64,000 nucleotides of DNA, taken from Methylobacterium sp. (GTDB lineage Bacteria > Pseudomonadota > Alphaproteobacteria > Rhizobiales > Beijerinckiaceae). The notes beneath the pieces are model-generated. The model did no database searches. It worked only from the letters and a program-made list of their open reading frames with translations, and was not told the DNA's origin. The translations under genes were made by a program, and so were the position numbers. The first letter of the stretch is position 1. Each line of letters begins with the position of its first letter. Shown here in pieces: positions 11,575-13,663 of the stretch. The stretch covers positions 104,319 to 168,318 of the forward strand of contig PNLY01000001.1 of NCBI GenBank assembly GCA_013823325.1, written 5' to 3'.

Positions 11575-12132
11575 ATGCACGCCAGGGTCATTGTCGTCGG
11601 CTTGGGTCTGGCCGTTTTTCTGTCGGGTTGCATGGCGATGGGCGGGCCGGCGAGCAAGGCGCCGGAACCGTTGAAAAAGATCGACGCTGGCCGCTTCTAC
11701 AGCGGTCTCTGGCACGAGATCGCCCGTCGCCCGATGGCGATCACCGATGGCTGCGTTGCTGGTGCGACGGAGTACAAGCGTGACGCCGGTGCCGGTATCG
11801 AGGTCCTCGACTCCTGCCGGATGGGCACGCCTGAGGGCGAACTCAAGACGATCGGAGGGCCGGGCCGTATCCTCGATCCCGGCACGAACGCCAAACTGAG
11901 GGTCGACTATCGCCTGTACGGCTTCATTCCGGTCACGCGTGACTATTGGGTGCTCGATCGCGCGAACGACTACAGCTGGTTCATCTCTGCCGATCCCGAG
12001 TTCCGCGACCTCTATATTTTCTCCCGCGACCCGCAGATCGGCGAGGCGCAGCGGCGCAGGCTTGTCGCGCGCGCCCGAGCGCTGGGCTATGACGTGAGCA
12101 AGCTCGAGTTTCCCGAGATGCCGCGGCGGTGA
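11575..12132 (+). CDS. Lipocalin family lipoprotein (Blc-like)
   Basis: The 185-aa precursor has a lipoprotein signal peptide with lipobox LSGC at residues 15-18. The mature part is a bacterial lipocalin: FYSGLWHEIARRP (the GxW strand), a Cys that can pair across the barrel (DGCVAG, DSCRMG), VDYRLYGFIPVTRDYWVLD, and the closing DYSWFISADPE. Blc-type proteins bind fatty acids or lysophospholipids at the outer membrane and help with envelope stress. It has Met after Cys in place of Asp, so sorting to the outer membrane is expected. It appears monocistronic. Confidence 0.85.
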   Translation: MHARVIVVGLGLAVFLSGCMAMGGPASKAPEPLKKIDAGRFYSGLWHEIARRPMAITDGCVAGATEYKRDAGAGIEVLDSCRMGTPEGELKTIGGPGRILDPGTNAKLRVDYRLYGFIPVTRDYWVLDRANDYSWFISADPEFRDLYIFSRDPQIGEAQRRRLVARARALGYDVSKLEFPEMPRR

Positions 12133-12464
12133 GCCTTTCCAATCCATGGAGAAGGGTCGGCGTGAGCCACCTTGGCGCTCGCAAGGCGATCACGTCTGGA
12201 TCGATCCCTTGCCGGCGCGTGCCTGATACCGGCTTCACGGCATCTGCTCCGATCCGCATCGAATCCTTATGTCGCCCGGCCTAGTTTTGGGTCCGTGTCG
12301 TGCTCGCTCGCATTCGGAGCCGGGACGCCATCGAACCCCGGCCGCCCCGTGGGGTTTGGCGGCCTTCCGCTTTCGTTTGGTGACTGTCCTGAGCCCGGCC
12401 GAGGCGCGGCGGAGCGTTCCGTTCCGCCGCGCCGCTATCATCGTGCCACTCTGCCGAGGTCGAC
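12133..12464 (+). other. Intergenic region with a GC-rich hairpin before the DapA-like gene
   Basis: No convincing gene is present in these 332 bases. An 11-bp perfect stem (12403-12413 with 12423-12433, 9-nt loop) ends 31 bp before the DapA-like ATG. It lacks a T-tract, so it is more likely a 5'-UTR structure than a strong terminator of the lipocalin gene. Confidence 0.5.
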
Positions 12465-13385
12465 ATGGATCACTGGCTTCATGGGATGTTCACTGCCCTC
12501 GTCACGCCCTTCAGCGCCGGAGCGTTGGACGAGCCGAGCCTGCTGCGCCTGGTCGATTGGCAGGTCCGGGAGGGCGCTGATGGCATCGTGCTCGGCTCCG
12601 CGAGCGGCGAATATTCGACGTTGACCCGCAATGAGCGCATCCGGCTCGTCAGGTTGGCACGCGCCGCGGCCGGGCCCGGCTATCCGATCCTGGCCGCCGC
12701 AGGATCCAACTCGACCGCAGACAGCATCGCGGAGGTCAAGGACGCTGCGGCTGCGGGCGCGAGCGCCATCCTGCTGCGGCTGCCCTACTACAACAAGCCG
12801 ACGCAGGCCGGTCTCGTCCAGCATGTCTTGTCGGTGGCGGAGACCACCTCGCTTCCGGTGATCGTCGATAACGATCCCGATCGCTGCGCCGTCGACCTCA
12901 CGCCCGAGGCGCTGGCCGAGATGGCGGCGCATCCGGCTGTCGTCGGCGTCCTCGAACGGCGCGGCGACATCGTCCGCTGCGATCGCATCATGCGCAGCTG
13001 CAGCCGGCATTTCCTGCGCCTCACCGGGGCCGGCGATGTCATTCCGCCCTACATCGCCGCCGGCGGCTGCGGCGCGGTCACCAGCATGGGCAACCTGGCG
13101 CCGCGCCTGCTGCGCCGCATCAGGGAAGCCTGCCGCGCCGGCGCATTCGAACAGGCCCAGACGCTGCAACGGCGTCTGATCCCACTCCACGGCCTGCTGT
13201 CCCGCGAGCCCGATCCCGTCGCGGTCAAGCTGGCCCTGTCGTTCCAGCATTCCGGCGTCGAGCCCACCTGCCGGCTGCCCTTGGTTGCGGCGCAGCCTTC
13301 GCTGGCTGAGGAGCTGAAATACGCGCTCGACGATCTGCCGCGGCCGGTCAACGGCCACGCGATAGCGCATCGCTCCGCCGCCTAG
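12465..13385 (+). CDS. Dihydrodipicolinate synthase-fold protein lacking Schiff-base Lys and catalytic Tyr
   Basis: The 306-aa protein aligns along its whole length with the DapA/NAL family: the opening FTALVTPF, GSASGE at 44-49 (canonical GTTGES), YYNKPTQAG at 108-116, and a GGCGAVTSMGN block. The two defining residues are changed. Where DapA has YNVPxR with the catalytic Tyr, this protein has DNDPDR (D135), and where it has GIKE with the Schiff-base Lys it has GVLE (L163). Standard aldolase chemistry through a lysine imine is therefore not expected. It may be a pseudoenzyme, a regulatory subunit or an enzyme with other chemistry. It is monocistronic and lacks lysine-pathway neighbours. Confidence 0.85.
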   Translation: MDHWLHGMFTALVTPFSAGALDEPSLLRLVDWQVREGADGIVLGSASGEYSTLTRNERIRLVRLARAAAGPGYPILAAAGSNSTADSIAEVKDAAAAGASAILLRLPYYNKPTQAGLVQHVLSVAETTSLPVIVDNDPDRCAVDLTPEALAEMAAHPAVVGVLERRGDIVRCDRIMRSCSRHFLRLTGAGDVIPPYIAAGGCGAVTSMGNLAPRLLRRIREACRAGAFEQAQTLQRRLIPLHGLLSREPDPVAVKLALSFQHSGVEPTCRLPLVAAQPSLAEELKYALDDLPRPVNGHAIAHRSAA

Positions 13386-13492: not shown

Positions 13493-13663
13493 ATGGCCAC
13501 TTATGAAGCGTTCCCCAGACGGCGACGCCAGACGGCTTCCGGAACCGGGCCGGGCAGCGATCAGTCCGGCGGGATCGCTAAAGACCTGCTGCAGTCCCTC
13601 GTCCTTCTGCTCCTGCTCGCCGTCGTGCTGGCCATTCGGATCTACGTCACGGCCCCGATCTGA
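13493..13663 (+). CDS. Small single-pass membrane protein, unknown function
   Basis: A GGAGGG ribosome site (13483-13488) points to the ATG at 13493, giving 56 aa; an ATG at 13478 in frame precedes that site. Residues about 1-32 are polar with an RRRR cluster, and about 33-53 form one hydrophobic helix (LLQSLVLLLLLAVVLAIRIY). The Arg cluster in front suggests the N-terminus stays in the cytoplasm. I do not recognise the family. A strong hairpin terminator follows within 30 bp. Confidence 0.65.
   Translation: MATYEAFPRRRRQTASGTGPGSDQSGGIAKDLLQSLVLLLLLAVVLAIRIYVTAPI

Follow-up and report, generated by a model that had tools for sequence, protein, structure and literature searches.

The closest described relatives of the protein analyzed here are the DapA enzymes (DHDPS) and other NAL/DHDPS class I aldolases. 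In E. coli DapA, roles have been reported for Thr44, Tyr107, Tyr133, Arg138 and Lys161 (PMC3188589; PMC5109050; PMC11201819). Lys161 is the Schiff-base lysine and Tyr133 the catalytic tyrosine, with which Thr44 is reported to share a proton relay. Changing Lys161 to Arg or Ala is reported to lower the activity 300-800-fold, though not to zero (PMC3188589, citing its ref. 48), and loss of the lysine alone therefore need not equal a complete null. Human 4-hydroxy-2-oxoglutarate aldolase is described as using Lys196 and Tyr168, and the idea of a GxxGE carboxylate loop extends to this and other NAL/DHDPS class I aldolases (PMC3188589). A role beyond lysine synthesis, in iron homeostasis, is reported for DapA1 of P. 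pseudoalcaligenes, which that report treats as an active dipicolinate-making enzyme (PMC6989483). Among the matches listed from the open-access literature, no title or abstract opening reports a natural DHDPS without the Schiff-base lysine.

The protein described here, which we call DAPAL, is encoded in the window, i.e., the whole 64,000-nucleotide stretch of Methylobacterium DNA that was analyzed:

12456 to 12459, plus strand: GAGG, resembling a ribosome-binding site, 5 nt before the DAPAL ATG (read by eye)
12465 to 13385, plus strand: DAPAL, ATG start, 306 aa, a DapA-fold protein without the Schiff-base lysine and the catalytic tyrosine

DAPAL is a member of the DHDPS/NAL superfamily by profile and predicted structure, but it is not a class I aldolase by mechanism. 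Residues 6-288 match PF00701 (DHDPS) with an E-value of 1.8e-63 and 214.5 bits against a gathering score of 22.1. The top NCBIfam model is TIGR00674 (dapA), at 204 bits against a cut-off of 206.15, so that the equivalog threshold is not reached. The solved structures nearest by sequence are entries named DHDPS, and the nearest named DapA matches are mostly alphaproteobacterial. Identity to DapA is about 33-42%. An AlphaFold2 model made from the window protein and 29 DapA rows has a mean pLDDT of 92.1 and a pTM of 0.90. Its top Foldseek match is the Brucella DHDPS 6xgs (TM 0.91, 1.2 Å, 38% identity), and the best 50 of the 685 matches with E <= 0.001 comprise DHDPS and MosA entries only. The profile and the model agree with the view of the first-pass annotation, made from the sequence alone, that the whole DHDPS/NAL fold is kept. 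An antisense open reading frame at 12438-13370 on the minus strand is an unlikely candidate for the true gene, as the family match belongs to the plus frame and long overlapping frames on both strands are common in the window.

The differences from DapA include catalytic residues. These were compared between the 22 full DAPAL orthologues described below and 102 DapA-type sequences, with the following codons of the window gene as reference:

12600 to 12602, plus strand: codon 46, Ala at the DapA Thr column (E. coli Thr44); Ala in 20/22 orthologues, Val in 1, Ser in 1; Thr in 102/102 DapA
12777 to 12779, plus strand: codon 105, newly invariant Arg, located where strand 4 ends; Arg in 22/22; Val in 93, Ile in 8 and Ala in 1 of 102 DapA
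12867 to 12869, plus strand: codon 135, Asp at the catalytic Tyr column (E. coli Tyr133); Asp in 22/22, Tyr in 102/102 DapA
12873 to 12875, plus strand: codon 137, a new invariant Asp; Asp in 22/22; Ile in 90 and Val in 12 of 102 DapA
12882 to 12884, plus strand: codon 140, a retained Arg (E. coli Arg138), conserved in orthologues and DapA
12951 to 12953, plus strand: codon 163, Leu in place of the Schiff-base Lys (E. coli Lys161), close to the end of strand 6; Leu in 22/22, Lys in 102/102 DapA

The replacements of the lysine by Leu163 and of the tyrosine by Asp135, both proposed in the first-pass annotation, hold in a gap-free alignment, and no orthologue with Lys or Tyr at these positions was found. 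An alignment slip was considered and rejected, since there are no gaps near the two columns and the flanking motif residues agree: GVL(163)ERR of DAPAL lies on GVKDAT of DapA, and VD(135)NDPDR on IYNIPGR. A hydroxyl residue at the Thr44 column is missing in 21/22 orthologues, the exception having Ser. With Ala in this column, the threonine of the proton relay is therefore gone as well as the tyrosine. Nor was a substitute lysine seen in the barrel, in the alignment or in the predicted model. The lysines of DAPAL are at 92, 111, 255 and 285, and K255 alone is invariant; it is as conserved in DapA, and lies past the barrel strands in a C-terminal helix (252-261 in the model). In the same model, L163 lies in strand 159-164 and D135 in strand 132-136, while R105 ends strand 101-105.

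The motifs around these residues are kept in part. The first-pass annotation had listed the pyruvate-binding GxxSGE loop and YYNKP as intact. The DapA loop G-T-T-G-E aligns without gaps to S-A-S-G-E in DAPAL; its GE is retained, but the first Gly (column 45) is Ser or Thr in 22/22 orthologues and the Thr has been exchanged as listed above. YYNKP is present in DAPAL itself, but its lysine, K111, is Arg in 19/22 orthologues. E49, Y108, Y109, N136, P138 and R140 are common to both groups (at least 21/22 orthologues and at least 95% of the DapA set), and Tyr107 and Arg138 in E. coli numbering are thus retained as Y109 and R140. Other columns invariant in DapA have shifted throughout the orthologues, with G78 replaced by Ala (22/22) and D190 by Ala, Gly or Ser (22/22). 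The residues newly invariant in 22/22 orthologues include R66, R105, D137, C141, C172, R181, R185, A189, C202, R236 and H262. The columns of N82 and E86, which we take to be positions of lysine feedback (allosteric) control in E. coli DapA, have also changed, N82 being Tyr in 15/22 orthologues and E86 variable. H58 is likewise altered, with Arg in 20/22 orthologues; in E. coli DapA, His56 is described as an allosteric-site residue for lysine feedback (PMC5109050).

Compared with DapA, DAPAL therefore has the same fold and length, the E49 loop residue, the YY pair and the Arg138 equivalent, whereas it lacks the Schiff-base lysine, the catalytic tyrosine and, in 21/22 orthologues, the Thr44 hydroxyl, and forms a long-stemmed clade of its own. 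With human 4-hydroxy-2-oxoglutarate aldolase it shares the superfamily and the idea of the carboxylate loop, while its lysine column is Leu in every orthologue. A solved DapA without the lysine does exist: the E. coli K161A mutant, PDB 3i7q, is among the listed matches to the DAPAL model. That is an engineered single change, whereas the changes in DAPAL are natural, coordinated and conserved as a set. P. pseudoalcaligenes DapA1 also differs from DAPAL in that it is treated as catalytically active.

The window's genome encodes 12 PF00701 members, and the lysine column is kept in the other 11, i.e., the intact true dapA elsewhere in the genome (304.8 bits) and 10 distant paralogues, each of which was aligned singly with DapA. 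The catalytic tyrosine is less universal among the latter, five of the 10 having Gln or Trp. In a tree built by a quick method from 60 rows, the 22 DAPAL orthologues form one clade, with an SH-aLRT support of 100 and a long stem (2.39 changes per column). Seven of the 10 distant paralogues are included in this tree, the other three (L008, L009 and L011) having been removed by the blastp filter. The branching point of the clade is weakly defined, as the dapA group is supported at only 59 and long branches leading to paralogues meet.

The orthologues were found with a profile of nine of them (A1, threshold E <= 1e-85) in 22 of 67 genomes of the genus. They scored 493-620 bits, whereas the highest-scoring DapA in the scored sets reached 223, and the reading frame is intact in all 22. 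Residues 1-116 of a further orthologue, followed by masked bases, are present in G032, which was left out of the count. No orthologue was detected outside the genus: the family search matched 7/298 genomes and 1/43 genera, all in the window's genus, and the order (1/397), class (1/385) and phylum (1/398) searches each matched solely the window's own genome. The family, order, class and phylum samples overlap, and about 1 to 7 best candidates were scored per genome.

Within the genus, DAPAL is dispensable, yet conserved where it is kept. It is dispensable because it is absent from most of the genus and has been lost or truncated in four genomes. In G020 and G066, which have the malate-synthase locus described below, the neighboring membrane-protein gene is kept, and both DAPAL and the open reading frame upstream of it are absent. 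G035 (L210:3963-4100) is syntenic with the window and has no DAPAL, but a relic of the membrane-protein gene with an in-frame stop. At the malate-synthase locus of G011 (L131:7842-8537), only DAPAL residues 154 to the end are found, beside an intact-looking membrane-protein gene.

Where DAPAL is kept, the Nei-Gojobori method gives median dN/dS values of 0.147 for 6 pairs in the window's subclade and 0.200 for 78 pairs in the large one; the two small subclades have 0.130 (3 pairs) and 0.115 (1 pair). The median for canonical dapA is 0.129 (21 pairs from 7 of the 13 large-subclade genomes). Between the window DAPAL and its three nearest orthologues, dN is 0.07-0.08 and dS 0.45-0.53. These ratios indicate purifying selection on DAPAL, which in the large subclade is slightly weaker than on dapA; relaxed selection was not seen. 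This agrees with the argument of the first-pass annotation that the protein is not decaying and is probably under selection for another role. Decay of the paralogue could account for the loss or truncation in G011, G020, G035 and G066. We nevertheless reject it, since median dN/dS lies at 0.12-0.20 in four subclades compared with 0.13 for dapA, 22/22 frames are intact and novel residues have become fixed; among the explanations considered here it is the most improbable. Judged from sequence, with a conserved loss of catalytic residues in a fold under selection, DAPAL is a candidate pseudoenzyme.

The gene neighborhood offers a further clue to the role of DAPAL, starting from the gene downstream of it in the window:

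13493 to 13663, plus strand: small membrane protein of 56 aa with one helix (judged by eye from composition), separated from the end of DAPAL by 107 nt

A homologue of this protein adjoins DAPAL downstream on the same strand in 21/22 loci, the exception being G061. The homologues are 53-62 aa long, with a basic N-terminus followed by one hydrophobic helix, and have a dN/dS of 0.25-0.28. The two genes are separated by 16-51 nt at 15 loci and by 107-124 nt in the group of four to which the window belongs; the two remaining loci have spacings of 144 and 242 nt. Searches of Pfam, NCBIfam, PHROGs and PADLOC found nothing that matches the membrane protein. DAPAL and the small proteins beside it gave no PHROG or PADLOC match, and a phage or defence link is therefore not supported.

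The wider setting varies. In four genomes, including that of the window, DAPAL is flanked by moaA/DUF971 on one side and a YkuD gene on the other, and in 13 genomes (all 13 checked) by a DUF3616 gene and malate synthase. A third setting is partly shared by three genomes, and each of the last two is unique, with KdpD/KdpE-like genes next to DAPAL in one of them. The pairing of DAPAL with the membrane protein persists in the moaA/YkuD, DUF3616/malate-synthase, DUF4118 and kdpDE-like settings. This constant neighbor favors a role of DAPAL outside plain lysine biosynthesis. The membrane protein also occurs without DAPAL in genomes of the genus. Eight copies have no full DAPAL beside them (two in G007, two in G032, and one each in G020, G066, G035 and G011), the G032 pair being uncertain as its DAPAL is masked. 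One or both of D31 and R49 are lost in four of these copies, the G035 copy has the stop, and three keep both residues. Such erosion of orphan copies would lend weak support to a coupling with DAPAL.

Several observations concern individual loci. Just upstream of DAPAL in the window, near the DUF971 gene and moaA, is a lipocalin-like lipoprotein gene (11575-12132; PF08212, E 3.7e-38). A close relative (L123:9537-11563) has a metallo-beta-lactamase-fold gene and a LysR regulator in its place. In two of the four moaA/YkuD-type loci (L123:9273-9434 and L163:8593-8757), a 3' fragment of the YkuD gene that lies downstream recurs immediately ahead of DAPAL, and may be a scar of the arrival of the DAPAL piece. 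A DUF4118 membrane protein, resembling KdpD positions 402-648 and with no kinase domain match, adjoins DAPAL in G065, G087, G088 and G032 (L164:6404-7315, L165:6389-7366, L168:5837-6703 and L209:4045-4917). It was considered as a general partner and rejected, as it occurs in only 11/67 genomes and lies on another contig in the window's genome. KdpD- and KdpE-like genes adjoin DAPAL in G076 (L167), named from their best NCBIfam models, both of which score below cut-off.

Directly upstream of DAPAL, 15 of the 22 loci, and also G032, encode a protein some 70 aa long that contains the core GRDxEGHWLAVETHGRGGGIF; in the 12 loci measured, its stop lies 7-9 nt ahead of the DAPAL start. It is absent from the window's group and from the G065/G087/G061 group. 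Weak relatives of both small proteins adjoin each other at another locus in genomes without DAPAL (G004, G009, G016, G035, G036, G063 and G064; search thresholds E <= 0.01 and E <= 1e-6), and by eye this pair was also recognized on contig C12 of the window's genome. In this paralogous pair the one-helix membrane protein comes first, followed by a G(R/Q)S..GFWVARDLEG..GIF protein (L221:5752-6178, L222:5632-6031, L212:3923-4332 and similar). At the listed loci a small open reading frame follows that by eye resembles a recombinase fragment, the L221 copy of which has no NCBIfam match. As their pairing at a separate locus shows, the two small-protein families are connected independently of DAPAL, which is encoded between a member of each. 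DAPAL might be seen as a reused aldolase barrel with a rebuilt, imine-free pocket that serves a genus-specific signalling or ligand-sensing module, encoded between the 70-aa GHWLAVETHGRGGGIF protein and the one-helix membrane protein, whose families are paired elsewhere in the genus. We consider this more specific proposal possible but less likely than not.

The reading we tentatively prefer, at a little under an even chance, is that DAPAL is a neofunctionalised regulatory or ligand-binding module that forms no Schiff base, has a remodelled pocket and would work with the small membrane protein. An old DapA duplicate would have abandoned Schiff-base chemistry for a new role, with lysine synthesis remaining the task of the intact dapA encoded elsewhere. 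The pocket is probably still in use because retained residues and newly fixed ones both occur at the strand ends around it; the fixed new charged and Cys set comprises R105, D135, D137, C141 and C202, some of them at strand ends. It may bind a small ligand, probably a carboxylate, via the GE loop, R140 and R105 without a covalent imine. The basic N-terminus of the membrane protein is expected in the cytosol by the positive-inside rule, and the small protein could then hold DAPAL at the inner membrane as a ligand-dependent regulatory or scaffold module. Some observations fit this less well. DAPAL of G061 has no membrane protein beside it, and both the membrane protein and the paralogous small-protein pair exist without DAPAL and may not need it. 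Moreover, the gap in the window is 107 nt, and the distribution of DAPAL in the genus is patchy, four genomes having lost or truncated it.

The main rival is an enzyme with another, non-Schiff-base chemistry in the same pocket, where D135, D137 and R105, perhaps with an invariant Cys, would form a new acid-base or metal site. The new charged residues are just as compatible with a catalytic site of this kind. We regard this rival as a serious possibility, though again a tentative one: R105, D135, D137, C141, C172 and C202 are invariant, R105 and D135 lie at barrel strand ends, and E49, R140 and Y109 are retained. Against it, the settings vary, no pathway neighbor is constant, and the one constant neighbor is the small membrane protein, which is no enzyme. 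That DAPAL instead acts as a regulatory or structural partner of active DapA in mixed oligomers is unlikely. Tyr109 is kept in at least 21/22 orthologues though the protein's own Tyr/Thr relay is gone, the equivalent Tyr107 of E. coli DapA is described as protruding into the active site of the adjacent monomer (PMC3188589), and an intact DapA is encoded in the genome. But a DapA-like match (33-39% identity) is present in 37/37 genus genomes compared, whereas DAPAL is patchy and its clade long-stemmed. The incomplete loss of activity in the Lys161 mutants of E. coli leaves some room for a weak DapA-like aldol reaction without the lysine. Yet in DAPAL the Tyr133 equivalent is gone in 22/22 orthologues and the Thr44 equivalent in 21/22, and an intact dapA is present, which makes such residual activity very unlikely.

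Collectively, what defines the class I aldolases of this superfamily is their lysine, and DAPAL represents a natural, conserved subfamily in which the lysine, the tyrosine and the threonine are replaced in a fixed pattern. At 2 bits under the dapA cut-off, it could be mistaken for plain DapA by automatic naming. The first-pass annotation had listed a different reaction, a ligand sensor or a partner of an active paralogue as possible roles; new here is the small membrane protein conserved beside DAPAL, which was absent from that list and is a direct, testable candidate partner. DAPAL thus offers a clean system for studying how an aldolase barrel turns into a binder, a regulator or a different enzyme.
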